DNA from: an uncultured Bacteroidales bacterium
Lineage (GTDB): Bacteria; Bacteroidota; Bacteroidia; Bacteroidales; Paludibacteraceae
Direction of reading: 5' to 3'
NCBI GenBank assembly: GCA_902799705.1
Contig: CADCBP010000005.1
Span: 1-64,000, forward strand
Length of the DNA stretch: 64,000 bases
Shown: piece by piece, positions 11,134 through 61,603 of the stretch
How the letters are laid out: every line of letters starts with the position of its first letter
How positions within the stretch are numbered: the first letter of the stretch is position 1
The notes under the pieces: generated by a model
Told to the model about the DNA's origin: nothing
What the model saw: only the letters and a program-made list of their open reading frames with translations
Database searches by the model: none
Program-made: the position numbers and the translations under genes

Positions 11134-11850
11134 ATGAAAGAGATTCTGCGATTTTTGAAGGAGTTGTCGGTGAATAACAACCGCGAGTGGTTTACCGAGA
11201 ACAAAGCCTGGTACCAAGAGTGCCATGCTCGTTTCGTGGAATTCAGCGCGGAGTATATCAAGCGTCTGTCTGAGTTGGATCCGAGCTTGGCAGTGTTGCA
11301 GCCTAAAGATTGTATCTGGCGCATCTATCGCGACGTGCGTTTTTCGCATGACAAGCGCCCGTACAAAGAATGGTTCGGTGTCTTTCCGGCGGCCGGCGTA
11401 CCGGGCAAGCCGAAGACATGGGGAAAGAAATCCATGCGCGGCGGTTATTATGTACATATCCAACCCTGTCAGTGCATGTTTGCAGGAGGTATATGGGATC
11501 CGGGCAAAGAACTGTTAGACGCATTGCGGAAGGAGATAGAAGCCAACTACGAGGAGGTGGAAACAATCATGGCCGCGCCGAGTTGGCAGAAGTATTTCGG
11601 TCAGGATTTTGACTATATGTGGGGGGCTTTGAAGAAAGTGCCGGCGGGTTTTGATCCGAACTTCGTGCATGCCGACTGGTTGAAACATAAGACCTATACC
11701 TTCAGTACACCACTGACGGACAAAGAGGTGAGTGCGCCCGATTTCATCGACCAAATCACCGAGATCGCTGCAGCGGGCAAGCCGATGAATGACTTTTTGA
11801 ACTACACATTCGAAGAGTACGGGGAGTTCCCGAGCAGATGCAAAAGATGA
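11134..11850 (+). CDS. DUF2461 family protein
   Basis: A 238-residue cytoplasmic protein of the DUF2461 (TIGR02453) family, recognised from LKELSVNNNREWFTENKAWY at the N-terminus, IWRIYRDVRFSHDKRPYK at ~65-82, and the GGYYVHIQP segment. The biochemical role of the family is unknown. It starts four bases after the rfbD stop, so it belongs to the rfbC-rfbD transcript. The ATG is part of the spacer repeat GTGAAAGAATGAAAGAG, and its stop opens a longer run of the same word. Confidence 0.85.
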   Translation: MKEILRFLKELSVNNNREWFTENKAWYQECHARFVEFSAEYIKRLSELDPSLAVLQPKDCIWRIYRDVRFSHDKRPYKEWFGVFPAAGVPGKPKTWGKKSMRGGYYVHIQPCQCMFAGGIWDPGKELLDALRKEIEANYEEVETIMAAPSWQKYFGQDFDYMWGALKKVPAGFDPNFVHADWLKHKTYTFSTPLTDKEVSAPDFIDQITEIAAAGKPMNDFLNYTFEEYGEFPSRCKR

Positions 11851-11966: not shown

Positions 11967-12038
11967 GACTTGCTAGTTCAATGGATAGAACGGGGCTCTC
12001 CTAAAGCTCAAATCCGAGTTCGATTCTCGGGCGGGTCA
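11967..12038 (+). tRNA. tRNA-Arg (anticodon CCT)
   Basis: Cloverleaf read by hand. Acceptor GACTTGC pairs with GCGGGTC (12031-12037) with G-U pairs. The D stem is GTTC/GAAC, the anticodon stem GGGCT/AGCTC with loop CTCCTAA, and the T stem CCGAG/CTCGG with loop TTCGATT. Discriminator is A and CCA is not encoded. It decodes AGG. No promoter of the usual type lies directly upstream, so it may be processed from the rfbC transcript. Confidence 0.93.
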
Positions 12039-19071: not shown

Positions 19072-19122
19072 ATGATGGAATGGTGACGCAAACAAAGTTT
19101 GCTAAATGATGAATTGATGGAA
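19067..19122. repeat. Word-hairpin-word repeat after RNase H gene
   Basis: GAATGATGGAATG, hairpin GCAAAC-AAA-GTTTGC (19088-19102), then ATGATGAATTGATGGAATG. The flanking words match, in reverse complement, those around 36735-36818 and inside pepD, while the hairpin arms differ. Confidence 0.8.
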
Positions 19123-19185
19123 TGCAAGAGTGAAAGGGGTTTTTGACAAAGACAGATTGCAAAAATAAGATTTTTTGACGAATTA

Positions 19186-22655: not shown

Positions 22656-24107
22656 TTATAACGAACTGAGTGTTTGGCAGAGCCAGCGGTAACAGCGTTC
22701 AGTAGATGGGATGGAGAGACGTTCCTGCGGGGAGTGAACGCCATACATCTGCGGGCCGATTGATACCATGTCGAGGTACGGGTATTTCTCAAGGAATAAT
22801 CCGCACTCCAGTCCGGCATGAATCGCCAACACTTTGGGTTCCGTTTTGAAGAGGTCTATATATGCTTTCTTCACTACCGTGAGCAGCGGTGAGTTGGGAT
22901 TCGGTGCCCATCCCGGGTACCCATCGCCGTGCGTGACCTCATCGCAGGCGAGTGAGAGGGCTTGCTCCACCGCCCACTTGAGATGATGCTTCGAGGCTTC
23001 TTTCGAGGAACGCTGGGAGGTGTTGACTTCTATATATCCGTCGCGCATTTTGATGGAGGCGAGGTTGGTGGATGTCTCGACGAGTCCTGGCATGTCGTTG
23101 CTCATGGCGATCATACCATGCGGACATTCGCAGAGTGCCATGATGAGGCGATAGGCTTTTTCCGCCGGAATGAACGAGTCCGGCATGTCGCATGTCTCAA
23201 GATCCAGGCGCATGTCTTTTTCGACCTCTCCGAAGACACCTTCCATCTGCGCGACAAAATGGTTCCACTCAATACGAATCTGCTCTTTGTATGCCATTGG
23301 GACAGCGATGACGGCTTCCGCTTCGCGTGCGATGGCATTGCGTAGGTTACCGCCGTTGATAGAGGCGAGTTGCAGCTCCGTCTGCGGCCAGATACGCGCG
23401 AGGAACCATACGAGGATCTGGTTGGCGTTGGCGCGACCTTTGTTGATATCATCGCCGGAGTGACCGCCAAGCAAGCCACCGACTGAAAGTCGGATGGCTA
23501 ATGAGGGAATGATGGAATGAGCCGCTTCGCTTAATGATGGATTGACAGGCTCATAGTGCATTTTGGCGAGGGTGTCGATACCTCCGGCGCAGCCGATGAA
23601 GATCTGGCCGTCGTCTTCGGAGTCGAGATTGATAAGCCGTTTTGATTGCAGCATGCCGTCTTTCAGTTTCATCGCGCCGGTGAGTCCTGTCTCTTCATCG
23701 ACGGTGAAAAGGCATTCGATAGCCGGGTGTTGAAGTTCGGGATCGGTGATAGCAGCCAGCGCCATAGAGATACCTATTCCGTCATCTCCTCCGAGGGTAG
23801 TGCCTTTGGCTTTAAGCCATTCGCCGTCAATATAGGTCTCGATAGGATCTTTGAGGAAGTCATGCTGCACATTGCCGTCTTTCTCCGCCACCATGTCCAT
23901 GTGCGCTTGAAGGATGACACCTTCATGGTCTTCGTATCCCGGTGTGGCAGGAACGCGCATGATGACATTCATGGCCTCGTCCGCCACGCACTCAATATGA
24001 TGGGTTGCCGCGAAATCCTGCAACCATTTACTAATCTGTTCCTCATGCTTAGAGGGTCTCGGTACTTTGCATATCTCAGCAAAGATGTCAAACACTTTTT
24101 GGGTCAT
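22656..24107 (-). CDS. pepD: Aminoacyl-histidine dipeptidase (cytosol non-specific dipeptidase)
   Basis: A 483-residue cytoplasmic M20 zinc peptidase that cleaves Xaa-His and other dipeptides; the length equals E. coli PepD. Metal ligands are visible in VILQAHMDMVAEKD, GTTLGGDDGIGISMA and FTVDEETGLTGAMKL, and the dimer region has GGHSGDDINKGRANANQIL. Residues ~186-202 (PSLSEAAHSIIPSL and neighbours) are encoded by a copy of an intergenic repeat element (23500-23548), placed just before the conserved GLLGGHSG. The start overlaps the MATE gene by 20 bases, so the two form an operon with the promoter at 25500-25530. Confidence 0.95.
   Translation of the reverse strand: MTQKVFDIFAEICKVPRPSKHEEQISKWLQDFAATHHIECVADEAMNVIMRVPATPGYEDHEGVILQAHMDMVAEKDGNVQHDFLKDPIETYIDGEWLKAKGTTLGGDDGIGISMALAAITDPELQHPAIECLFTVDEETGLTGAMKLKDGMLQSKRLINLDSEDDGQIFIGCAGGIDTLAKMHYEPVNPSLSEAAHSIIPSLAIRLSVGGLLGGHSGDDINKGRANANQILVWFLARIWPQTELQLASINGGNLRNAIAREAEAVIAVPMAYKEQIRIEWNHFVAQMEGVFGEVEKDMRLDLETCDMPDSFIPAEKAYRLIMALCECPHGMIAMSNDMPGLVETSTNLASIKMRDGYIEVNTSQRSSKEASKHHLKWAVEQALSLACDEVTHGDGYPGWAPNPNSPLLTVVKKAYIDLFKTEPKVLAIHAGLECGLFLEKYPYLDMVSIGPQMYGVHSPQERLSIPSTERCYRWLCQTLSSL
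23500..23548. repeat. Intergenic repeat element inside the pepD coding sequence
   Basis: The minus-strand reading TCAATCCATCATTAAGCG, then AAGCGGCTCATTCCATCATT, followed by CC matches intergenic 36777-36816 in all but two of ~39 bases. It is translated in frame in pepD. Confidence 0.85.
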
Positions 24108-36493: not shown

Positions 36494-36632
36494 TCCCCCC
36501 CTAAACCCTAAATCCTAAATCCTAAATTTGAAATCCTAAATCCTAAACCATAAACCCTAAATTTGAAATCCTAAATCCTAAACCTGAGTCATCTCAGGAG
36601 CACTTCAGGGGCACTTCAGGGGCACTTCGGAG
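36494..36632. repeat. CCTAAAT heptamer tract, CCTGAG hairpin and 12-bp repeats
   Basis: 36498-36583 is built of C(C/T)CTAAA-type heptamers with a few TTTGAAAT interruptions. It is followed by hairpin CCTGAG-TCAT-CTCAGG (36583-36598) and three GCACTTCAGGGG-type 12-mers to 36632. Nothing else is recognisable from 36633 to 36734. Confidence 0.85.
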
Positions 36633-36734
36633 GCATCCTAGACTTTATTAGTAATTATTGCCTGTAATTTGCTTATATTCAATGATTTACAAACATACTA
36701 ATTTTTCGCAAAATAGCCCCTTTTCGCCATTTCA

Positions 36735-36818
36735 TTTCATCAATCCATCATTGAGCGACGAAGTCGCGCTCATTCCATCAATCCATCATTGAGCGAAGCG
36801 GATCATTCCATCATTCCT
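36735..36818. repeat. Word-hairpin-word repeat, two units
   Basis: ATCAATCCATCATT is followed first by GA-GCGAC-GAA-GTCGC-GCTC (a perfect 5-bp stem), then CATTCCATCAATCCATCATT again, GAGCGAAGCGGA, and TCATTCCATCATTCC. The second unit is nearly identical to the segment inside pepD (23500-23548). Confidence 0.88.
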
Positions 36819-59284: not shown

Positions 59285-61603
59285 CTAAACTTTCTCCAAG
59301 TATTCATGCATAGCCGCAGCAGCTTTGCGTCCGTCACTCATCGCAAGGATAACAGTTGCACCTCCGCGAACGATATCGCCTCCGGCGAAGATGGTCGGGA
59401 TAGCAGACTGCATGCCTTCGTTCACTACGATGGTGCCTTTCTTGCTGATCTCCAGTCCTTCGACACTGGACGGTATCAACGGGTTCGGACTCACGCCTAC
59501 GGCTACAATCACGAGGTCCACTGGAAGGGTGACAGTCTTTCCTTCTACGGGAACCGGACTGCGGCGACCGCTCTCGTCGGGTTCGCCGAGTTCCATGACT
59601 TGAAGTACGGCTTCTTTCACACGACCATTCTCATCGGCATGGTACTCAATCGGGTTATGCAGAGTCATGAATTCGATACCTTCCTGCTTGGCATGATGCA
59701 CTTCTTCGATACGCGCCGGCATCTCGTCTTCCGAACGACGATAGATGATCATCGCGTGCTCTGCACCCAGACGCTTCGCAGTTCGGACAGCATCCATCGC
59801 AGTGTTACCGCCGCCGATGACGGCTACGTTCTTGCCGTATAACAATGGGGTGTCAGTCGCAGGGTTGGAAGCATCCATGAGGTTGACGCGCGTCAGGTAT
59901 TCGTTGCAACTCATCACGCCGTTCAGGTTCTCGCCCGGTATATTCATGAAGCGCGGCAGACCTGCACCCGACCCCACGAAGATGCCCTTGAAACCTTGCT
60001 CCTCAAGTTCTTTGACCGAGATGGTCTTTCCTATGATTGTGTCGGTATGGAACTGCACACCGAGCGCACGCAAGCCGTCTATCTCCGTGTCCACGATGGC
60101 GTTCGGCAGACGGAACTCCGGGATGCCGTATTTGAGAACACCGCCTATCTCATGCAGCGCCTCGAACACATGTACCTCATAGCCGTATTTGGCGGCATCT
60201 CCGGCAAAGGTAAGGCCGGCAGGACCGGAACCCACGACGGCGATTTTAGCTCCCTTCCCTTCAGGGGAGGGTTGGGAAGAGGCCGGTTGACTATTCGCAT
60301 AGTCCGCGCAGAAACGCTCGAGATAGCCGATGGCCACAGCTGGATGACCCATCTTAAGATGGATACATTGCGACTCACATTGCTTCTCTTGCGGACAAAC
60401 GCGGCCGCAGACTGCGGGGAGAGACGAACTCTCTTTGATGACTGCCGCAGCTCCGAGCACGTCGCCCGTCTCCAGTTTCTTGATGAAGCCCGGGATGTTG
60501 ATGTTCACCGGACAGCCCTGTACGCAGGTCGGATTCTTGCAGTTGAGGCAGCGGTGGCTCTCCATGATCGCTTGGTCAAAAGTGAGCCCTTGGTTCACTT
60601 CTTCGTGCAGCGATTTGACGCGCACCTCGGGACGCAGTTCGGGCATCTTGACGCGCTCTATGGCTGCGCGGTCTTTCGGGGTTCCGGCGAAGGGTTCCAC
60701 CGGCCTTACCTCGGTCTTACATTGGCTTTGACCGTCGCTTGACCGTCGTTCGACCGTCGTTCTTGACCCGTCTTTGGATGCTTTGAATTGCTCCAGTGCC
60801 TCCGCCTCTTCCGCCTTGTATGATTTCATTCGGCTCAGCATCTCGTCCCAATCGACTGCATGTGCATCGAACTCAGGTCCATCGACGCAGACGAATTTCG
60901 TTTTGCCGCCTACCGTCACACGGCACGCGCCGCACATTCCCGTACCATCGACCATGATCGTGTTCAGCGAAGCCTCTGTCGGGATATTGTATTTGGCGGT
61001 GGTCAATGCCACGAACTTCATCATGATGGCAGGACCGATAGTGATACATTTATCCACTTGCTCGCGGTTGATCACTTCTTCGACGCCGACAGTCACGACG
61101 CCTTGTTTGCCCATCGAGCCGTCGTCCGTCATGACGATCACTTCGTCGGACCATTGTGCCAACTCATCCTTTAGGATGATCAGGTCTTTGTTACGTGCCG
61201 CCAGCACAGTGATGACTTTGTTGCCGGCTTTCTTCAGAGCCTCAGCGATAGGCAGCATAGGAGCGGCTCCAACACCACCGCACGCACACACGACCGTCCC
61301 GTACTTCTCGATACGAGTGGCGCGTCCTAAAGGACCTACGATGTCATGCAGACATTCGCCCGGCTCCATCGCCAGTAATTTATGGGTGGACACACCGATA
61401 CGTTGCACCACCAGCGTGATGGTACCGCGTTCGATATCCGCCGCCGAAATGGTCAACGGGACACGTTCCGACTGCGCATCAACACGGATTATCACAAAAT
61501 GACCGGCTCTGCGGCTACGCGCAATGAGCGGAGCTTCCACGACGAGCTCCGCTACATTGTCCGAGAAAAATCTTTTTGAGAGTATCTTATTCTTATCTTT
61601 CAT
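59285..61603 (-). CDS. NfnAB-type fusion: NADH-dependent ferredoxin:NADP+ oxidoreductase / GltD-like
   Basis: A 772-residue flavoprotein fusing two subunits. Residues ~1-275 are the NfnA/PyrK-like FNR half, with FAD and NAD sites (VVCACGGVGAAPMLPIAEAL) and a [2Fe-2S] cluster (DGTGMCGACRVTVGG to CVDGPEFDAH). Residues ~320-772 are the NfnB/GltD half, with two [4Fe-4S] clusters (CLNCKNPTCVQGCPVNINIP; VCGRVCPQEKQCESQCI), an FAD fold (IAVVGSGPAGLTFAGDAAKY) and a NADP fold (VAVIGGGNTAMDAVRTAKRL). It may bifurcate electrons between NADH, NADPH and ferredoxin, or act in sulfide/glutamate metabolism. The two linkers (~277-292 and ~430-446) are encoded by repeat elements. Confidence 0.88.
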   Translation of the reverse strand: MKDKNKILSKRFFSDNVAELVVEAPLIARSRRAGHFVIIRVDAQSERVPLTISAADIERGTITLVVQRIGVSTHKLLAMEPGECLHDIVGPLGRATRIEKYGTVVCACGGVGAAPMLPIAEALKKAGNKVITVLAARNKDLIILKDELAQWSDEVIVMTDDGSMGKQGVVTVGVEEVINREQVDKCITIGPAIMMKFVALTTAKYNIPTEASLNTIMVDGTGMCGACRVTVGGKTKFVCVDGPEFDAHAVDWDEMLSRMKSYKAEEAEALEQFKASKDGSRTTVERRSSDGQSQCKTEVRPVEPFAGTPKDRAAIERVKMPELRPEVRVKSLHEEVNQGLTFDQAIMESHRCLNCKNPTCVQGCPVNINIPGFIKKLETGDVLGAAAVIKESSSLPAVCGRVCPQEKQCESQCIHLKMGHPAVAIGYLERFCADYANSQPASSQPSPEGKGAKIAVVGSGPAGLTFAGDAAKYGYEVHVFEALHEIGGVLKYGIPEFRLPNAIVDTEIDGLRALGVQFHTDTIIGKTISVKELEEQGFKGIFVGSGAGLPRFMNIPGENLNGVMSCNEYLTRVNLMDASNPATDTPLLYGKNVAVIGGGNTAMDAVRTAKRLGAEHAMIIYRRSEDEMPARIEEVHHAKQEGIEFMTLHNPIEYHADENGRVKEAVLQVMELGEPDESGRRSPVPVEGKTVTLPVDLVIVAVGVSPNPLIPSSVEGLEISKKGTIVVNEGMQSAIPTIFAGGDIVRGGATVILAMSDGRKAAAAMHEYLEKV
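60252..60271. repeat. Palindromic element in NfnAB linker
   Basis: CCCTTCCC-TTCA-GGGGAGGG, an 8-bp stem with one G-T pair, lies in frame and encodes part of SQPSPEGKGA, a Pro/Ser/Gly linker just before the FAD fold of the GltD-like half. Confidence 0.75.
60728..60770. repeat. Tandem 11-bp repeat in NfnAB linker
   Basis: GACCGTCG recurs at 60730, 60741 and 60752 (period 11). It encodes the RTTVERRSSDGQSQ linker between the two fused subunits. Confidence 0.85.

Follow-up and report, generated by a model that had tools for sequence, protein, structure and literature searches.

Small repeats shared between intergenic DNA and open reading frames occupy variable slots in PepD and other enzymes of a genus of gut Bacteroidales

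The window, by which we mean the whole 64,000-nucleotide stretch of DNA analyzed here (positions 1-64000 of contig C5 in G000, a genome assembly of 2.33 Mb in 45 contigs), carries on its minus strand a gene for a PepD-type dipeptidase whose frame is open over 483 codons and whose product matches the beta-Ala-His dipeptidase profile TIGR01893 at 527 bits against a cut-off of 344. Most of a 15-residue segment of this enzyme, in a beta-hairpin turn, is encoded by a 39-bp repeat that recurs between genes in the same window. The features concerned are as follows.

22656-24107, minus strand: pepD, encoding the 483-aa PepD-type dipeptidase that hosts the insert (open reading frame and profile match)
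23499-23543, minus strand: insert NPSLSEAAHSIIPSL in slot 1, encoding residues 189-203 and predicted to lie between strands 177-184 and 202-210
23506-23544, minus strand: 39-bp repeat copy within pepD, matching 36779-36817 without a gap
36779-36817, plus strand: intergenic copy of the pepD repeat, 37/39 identical (ungapped match)
36741-36778, plus strand: related unit adjoining the intergenic copy, whose hairpin, GAGCGACGAAGTCGCGCTC, differs (DNA fold z -1.3) and is set between similar CCATCA-type flanks
23475-23498, minus strand: coding palindrome GCCATCCGACTTTCAGTCGGTGGC (AIRLSVGG), lying directly 3' of the insert and folding as a DNA hairpin at -8.6 kcal/mol (z -6.3)
23034-23045, minus strand: PepD slot 2 (RDGY), short in G000, but filled by longer segments, many of them repeat-like, in 32/62 related PepDs
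19073-19124, minus strand: another intergenic relative, a hairpin-like AGCAAACTTTGTTTGC flanked by two copies of CATTCCATCA

The original prediction held that an intergenic repeat is translated in frame inside pepD, and both the repeat match and the frame are real. The pepD 39-mer (minus strand, 23544-23506) and the plus-strand copy agree at 37 of 39 positions, BLAST aligns them over 40 bp with 2 mismatches (E = 1.2e-13), and the best 39-mer match in 30 Markov-1 simulated windows reached only 26/39. A 19-mer core, allowing up to 3 mismatches, occurs three times in the window, the pepD copy included, against 0.03 expected; this expectation and the 39-mer simulations rule out a chance origin of the match. 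Two positional details needed correction: the intergenic copy, placed at 36777-36816, was off by 1-2 bases, and the segment, said to stand immediately before GGHSG, does lie on its upstream side, but ten residues (AIRLSVGGLL) intervene between residues 189-203 and GGHSG at 214-218. An AlphaFold model of moderate confidence (mean pLDDT 74.6, with 55 for the block of residues 191-200) predicts that slot 1 separates strands 177-184 and 202-210, as slot 2 does strands 343-355 and 358-367; the turn region of the PDB homologue 3mru is eight residues shorter.

Other repeats are visible in the window. Positions 36499-36817 form one intergenic region in which several unrelated repeat families stand in series, namely a 7-bp AAACCCT array, an 11-bp AAGTGCTCCTG array and then the pepD-type element. 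At gathering scores, Rfam reports two tRNAs for the window, and beside the tRNA at 11967-12038 an 8-bp AAAGAGTG/AAAGAATG array begins at 11847; the same octamers form the top-scoring array of the G000 sample (L120:18232). At 60728-60762, within a minus-strand CDS (59285-61603), an 11-bp array is read in frame as RTTVERRSSDGQ.

A PepD-type match was present in 61/61 genomes searched, many of which have a second paralogue about 45% identical, and 80 loci were retained for comparison. The sampled genomes are assemblies named as uncultured Bacteroidales, Bacteroidia or Paludibacteraceae, and their hosts, where stated, are mostly ruminants, with pig and horse also represented. Across 110 PepD rows with a readable slot, varied peptides stand ahead of A-I-R-L-S-V. 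A tree of 95 distinct proteins, built with the slot excluded and after removal of 14 duplicate rows and a second instance of the window, contains a clade of 62 rows (SH-aLRT 100), none of which has the ...DLF or ...KWF type typical of most distant rows and all of which hold some variable peptide in slot 1; repeat-like inserts also occur in a few rows outside this clade (L094, L028, L103 and L112). PepD slot 1 segments are 33-90 bp long. The segment of the window itself is present in 3/95 distinct rows (L006, which is the window, L038 and L039). Its nearest relatives, L036 and L037 (94% and 93% identical to the window PepD in residues), have KSQISNLKSQI in its place, while L038 and L039, which are less close (91% and 88%), carry its insert identical or with a single base different. 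As had been anticipated, then, the segment is absent or different in close relatives; a native origin is rejected, and by comparison of the PepD sequences the segment is non-native.

Slot 1 contents fall, in the 62 clade PepDs, into 20 classes defined by DNA motif through regular expressions, with mixed inserts such as L045 given one label; these include an AAAGG class of 12 members, an AAATC class of 10, a 16-bp SEAV unit in 7 and the SEAA element in 3. Fitting the classes to the PepD tree takes no fewer than 41 changes, and when the labels were shuffled 200 times the mean was 45.8 and the lowest value 41; slot 1 content is therefore nearly independent of descent. Slot 2, which follows LASIKM or LASVKM, holds four residues (RDGY, KEGY or similar) in 30/62 rows and 8-33 residues in 32/62, some of its fillings being the 16-bp unit, some CCCTCCCTT-type hairpins and some heptamers. 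The palindrome ATCGACCATGCATGGTCGAT or a near variant fills slot 2 in seven rows, with a degraded form in an eighth (L083), and in L090 both of its arms are changed with pairing kept.

The element of the pepD finding is the AGCGAAGCGG element, whose 26-bp SEAA core we searched for with up to 2 mismatches; the shared core is 26-40 bp long. It is present in 24/121 sampled genus genomes, against 0 for a reversed-pattern control. Contexts were drawn from 30 loci for 40 listed matches, leaving out those near locus ends. Among the copies thus retrieved there are 31 distinct contexts, and in 23 of these the core lies within a sense-strand frame of at least 120 codons reading S-x-S-E-A-A-H-S; in three more the only long open frame is a different sense frame, and five lack one. 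At least two sense frames are free of stops across the core in all 31, and the element is nonetheless read predominantly in a single frame and on a single strand: one frame is used in 23 of the 26 contexts with a long sense frame, and the other three (L220, L227 and L236) were judged intergenic because the likely genes there are on the opposite strand. This preference may reflect purging of the other frames or copying among coding sites.

Grouped by flanking peptides, the retrieved copies form 15 clusters, or about 15 gene sites, two of which may be one site, and one of these two combines a coding site and short frames that lie at an intergenic site. Ten hosts were compared with Pfam, and the matches comprise MlaD, a pyridine nucleotide-disulfide oxidoreductase (Lpd-like), a nucleotidyl transferase, glycosyl hydrolase 9, TPR, a BT4734-like protein and chorismate synthase; of the remainder, two have a sub-cut-off helix-hairpin-helix match only and one has no match. 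In the MCE/MlaD-like gene, compared by eye, G000 has QITNDKSPMI where L222 has SEAAHSNI. At two intergenic sites (L226 and L220) the SEAA element appears to provide the start codon of the next gene. No DNA fold beyond that of shuffled sequence was found for SEAA copies (z 0.3 and 0.9) or for one piece of the 16-bp unit (z 0.4). The search for the core in other genomes, proposed as a check, thus finds it dispersed in coding and intergenic positions, and the view that the repeats are mobile or copied is supported by the recurrence of one core at about 15 gene sites and by inserts that do not track the PepD tree. A single copy inside an enzyme was correctly recognized, but the scope was underestimated: there are many families of repeats, they affect several genes, and replacement recurs. 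The observation is genuine and reaches further than was first stated.

Repeats of the slots belong to a pool that extends across the genus. In a search space consisting of the window and the 80 loci (115 kb intergenic and 786 kb of CDS, the latter called with a custom hexamer gene finder), the 64 queries of repeat type matched 77 intergenic and 67 CDS places, against one match for the 20 queries of native type; the two types were separated by a regular expression that placed the repeat-like L094 (KGERLMVKGEELF), source of that one match, among the native queries and L026, L027 and L115 among the repeat-type ones. Fourteen of the 67 CDS matches lie less than 60 bases from predicted gene starts, possibly in mis-started genes, and without them 43/53 CDS matches are oriented as in pepD. 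When inserts were scored against the flanks of other species (ten of the 110 PepD rows, which the expression failed to capture, were excluded), 53/57 clade inserts had a best match above 15.5, the top value among the 18 native-type segments, most of them shorter; four (L043, L048, L057 and L058) had no match above this level. An insert's own flanks were the best match in 0/57 clade rows and among the first two in 6. Because they ranked first in none, an insert cannot be shown to come from its own genome, and an own-genome source for each insert is not supported. The 16-bp unit (up to 2 mismatches) occurs in 53/121 genus genomes with up to 43 copies, against a control of 0, and the strings at its variable position include hairpins changed on both arms together (GCGAAGC 14, GCCCGAAGGGC 4, GGCGAAGCC 2, GTGAAAC 2 and GTCCGGAGGAC 1); the expression for the unit hits 155 places and 113 strings, many of them without a hairpin and probably due to chance.

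PepD is not the only protein concerned. In-frame arrays occur in G000 in proteins that NCBIfam names above cut-off as MurG, LigA, SecA, IspH, DapA and Dpp5, and a DapB-like protein (104 bits against a cut-off of 122) has in-frame arrays of units 14 and 16. Comparison of array-bearing G000 proteins across the genus extended to PepD, LigA and the gene families that neighbor pepD. Compared with the E. coli enzyme (structure 2owo), the LigA of G000 gains 12 residues from its array. At this slot 1, G003, G021 and G022 have SDLGKKGFE, G000, G002 and G004 have DKGQRTKDKGQN, G015 has QRDNVQGTKG, G006 has AVTGYGLRVTGN and G007 has VESQKSKVESG; the slot is short in most of the less similar LigAs of the genus, and the G022 enzyme, 93% identical to that of G000, has the short form SDLGKKGFET. 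A second LigA slot, ahead of the zinc cysteines, also varies between species. MurG aligned with the PDB shows no net insertion, only an array-like linker. Nine of 14 families with at least 6 members beside pepD have a length-variable site by our criterion; among them are, by our own reading of their names, MATE-like, FeoB-like and peptidase-like families with repeat-like inserts in some species, and a MATE-type insert in L065 consists of CACAATT-like arrays around two hairpins. No length-variable site was found in the other five of these 14 neighbor families, among them GAPDH-like and MDH-like proteins.

A system of this kind raises the question of what might move the repeats. REP and BIME elements are short extragenic hairpins with compensating stems, served by RAYT transposases that are thought to move REPs as single-stranded DNA, and the genus likewise has short hairpins with compensating stems together with RAYT-like genes. 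In G000 the best Y1_Tnp match scores 21.8 bits against a cut-off of 23, and six such ORFs constitute, on reading, a RAYT-like family of about 330-390 aa, with an MPDHVHF-type HUH motif, Y-x-x-x-N-P and some 130 residues beyond the Y1 part that have no Pfam or NCBIfam match.

G000, contig C3, 33782-34771 (locus L254/L260): RAYT-like gene; others lie on contigs C17, C1, C27 and C12

Profile matches of a RAYT-like protein to transposases in the PDB reach E 0.009. In another member (L256, 427-1584, minus strand) the peptide SLNDERKVN occurs twice, mid-protein and near the C-terminus. If RAYT-like HUH enzymes moved hairpin-bearing elements as single-stranded DNA, with the heptamer arrays as a by-product, their distribution would fit, since the family is present in 26/37 genus genomes (G000 and 25 others, with up to ten matches each) and only weakly in 3/24 genomes of other families, and repeated hairpins stand near some copies (L272, L269, L268 and L278). 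Those hairpins, however, are not the coding elements. They belong in part to a REP-like family, GCCGGATnnnATCCGGC, whose stems covary and which often precedes ACAATAAA-like sequence; this family is found at L258/L272 (G030, in tandem behind a RAYT-like gene), L268 and L269, and in G000 at L139, L129 and L134, and is intergenic in 17/19 cases; REPs too are extragenic, whereas 23/31 SEAA contexts are coding. Hairpin enrichment was not found beside 23 RAYT-like genes (1.9 per kb against an intergenic 1.54), in a count where 5/28 loci yielded no gene, among them L267 with its visible hairpins. Five of the proteins score 24-43 bits against NCBIfam NF047646 (E 3e-5 to 3e-11), below its cut-off of 80, and no RAYT-like match was found in G004 (96% complete) or G036 (73% complete), yet these have a LigA and a PepD insert, respectively. 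We regard this explanation as unlikely and the RAYT-like family as a candidate mobilizer, no more. A genus-wide cassette system, in which an expanded RAYT-like HUH family with an extra C-terminal domain would move short repeats into, and swap them between, fixed loops of core enzymes, is conceivable and, in our judgment, doubtful. A reverse transcriptase was considered as mobilizer and set aside, with none found in G000 and RVT_1 in 21/61 genomes.

Alternatively, the slot contents could have been born in place, with indel-tolerant turns gaining 7-, 8- and 11-bp arrays by slippage, mutational bias producing the intergenic look-alikes, and no copying at all. The genus does favor these units: in samples of 400 kb each, arrays of units 7/8/11 number 30/12/12 in G000, 29/5/7 in 19 other genus genomes and 4/1/1 in 13 other families, where they are scarce, and Markov-1 simulations produce none, although G008 and G029 have none in 20 kb each. 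Within 464 kb of G000, arrays inside and outside predicted genes number 14 vs 21 for unit 7, 2 vs 12 for unit 8 and 2 vs 12 for unit 11, some of the genic ones being at gene ends or within short predicted genes. The LigA slot 1 inserts, moreover, are simple heptamers, and for simple 7-bp arrays arising in place slippage may be enough. What birth in place leaves unexplained is the presence of complex elements in unrelated genes: the SEAA core at about 15 sites, the 16-bp unit in 53/121 genomes, the palindrome ATCGACCATGCATGGTCGAT (up to 1 mismatch) in 21/121 genus genomes against a control of 0, and the arrayed double hairpin of the L065 insert. That complex elements were copied as DNA, rather than born in parallel, is well supported, and we find birth in place quite unlikely as a general account.

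Ordinary recombination of pepD alleles between species, after the repeats had entered once, long ago, would explain why less close PepDs can carry one and the same insert, and why inserts separate from the tails that follow them. L051 and L096 have an insert in common and 10-codon tails only 0.43 identical, while L039 and L082 have a tail in common (0.97) and not the insert; the tail in this way behaves as a separate module. It is a coding palindrome: the best hairpin stem in 59 distinct PepD tails averages 5.8 vs 3.3 in synonymous recodings (41% of individual tails at p <0.05), where 12 control pepD segments (25 rows) give 3.4-4.1 vs 2.8-4.0 recoded. Close pairs, however, are highly identical right up to the slot edge with unrelated inserts: slot contents differ between close relatives with similar flanks, as in L006/L036, where each of twelve 10-codon flank blocks is 0.80-1.0 identical, and the blocks adjoining the slot are 0.8-0.97 identical in L006/L036, L009/L052 and L039/L082. 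In L006, L038 and L039, with their common insert, flank blocks span 0.60-1.0, and those of L006/L038 (0.70-1.0) show that pairs with a common insert are not uniformly more diverged beside the slot. LigA and further genes vary in like manner, and the repeats occur between genes too, which makes allele recombination very unlikely as the explanation; replacement of short tracts would produce the patterns seen at the slot border and in the tail. Scarcely likely at all is that the peptides are selected, the loops being adaptive variable regions and the one-frame rule the mark of a useful peptide, for although 23/26 SEAA contexts use one frame where others are open in the core and all 62 clade rows have a variable slot 1 peptide, a single enzyme holds twenty unrelated classes and slot 2 is short in 30/62.

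In-frame repeat elements are best known from Rickettsia, and we found no description of in-frame intergenic repeats in Bacteroidales in the open-access literature. Rickettsia palindromic elements (RPEs) had been named as an analogue, aptly in that there are dispersed intergenic and in-frame copies here too, with a conserved peptide in one frame for SEAA. A review describes RPEs as dispersed repeats, intergenic and in frame in unrelated genes, with several families per genome and a conserved peptide (PMC10969869). The genus repeats are likewise both intergenic and in frame within unrelated genes, and the SEAA core keeps a conserved peptide in one frame (23/26, the other 3 judged intergenic). 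With regard to a palindromic fold, z is -6.3 for the PepD tail and 0.3 and 0.9 for the SEAA copies; the hosts are Bacteroidales, and one slot is filled by different families across species. RPEs measure about 150 bp, whereas the elements of the genus span about 25-110 bp and in many cases are tandem arrays with units of 7, 8 or 11 bp; because of this difference in size we do not class the latter as RPEs. From their shared features, pepD-type elements appear to work like RPEs.

Two further systems offer partial likenesses. TAACTGA heptamers are 7-bp direct repeats of Beggiatoaceae, Cyanobacteria and some Bacteroidetes, placed between genes and in some reading frames, their usual place being upstream of start codons and, within proteins, close to the ends, with other heptamers beside them in some Bacteroidetes and two sets in Paludibacter propionicigenes (PMC4679880). 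Both systems thus have 7-bp direct repeats that are intergenic and in some cases coding, but that system has one heptamer, whereas the genus has many, inside core enzymes and differing at fixed slots. Nematomorpha mitochondria have inverted repeats of up to 284 bp within conserved coding sequence (PMC6649704); an inverted repeat is kept in conserved coding sequence in the PepD tail as well, although those palindromes are mitochondrial and far longer.

We consider it likely that the phenomenon is an RPE-like one, in which minisatellite and hairpin repeats are dispersed into genes and swapped in short tracts at permissive loops. The genomes of the genus would hold a pool of small repeats, made up of 7-, 8- and 11-bp arrays, the 16-bp unit with its variable mini-hairpin, the AGCGAAGCGG element and palindromes, which would be copied into both intergenic DNA and genes. 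Genic copies would survive where their length is a multiple of three, the frame stays open and the protein loop is permissive; the pepD slot would be such a place, a beta-hairpin turn tolerating very different in-frame peptides. Once a slot holds a repeat, its content would be replaced within and between species by short tracts, for which we estimate a length of 50-110 bp, and slippage would reshape what is there. The repeats themselves are dispersed, and those within genes stand in frame; we infer that the insert peptides are tolerated rather than useful.

Gut Bacteroidales thus show in-frame repeats in LigA, MurG, SecA, IspH and PepD. Slot segments are unreliable for typing or annotation in the genus. 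Were the cassette system true, the proteome of the genus would be continually edited with interchangeable repeat peptides. Dozens of sequenced species with different PepD slot contents amount to a natural insertion scan of a core enzyme, one that reveals loops tolerating almost any sequence, and the system makes both the spread of short repeats and the neutrality of insertions testable.
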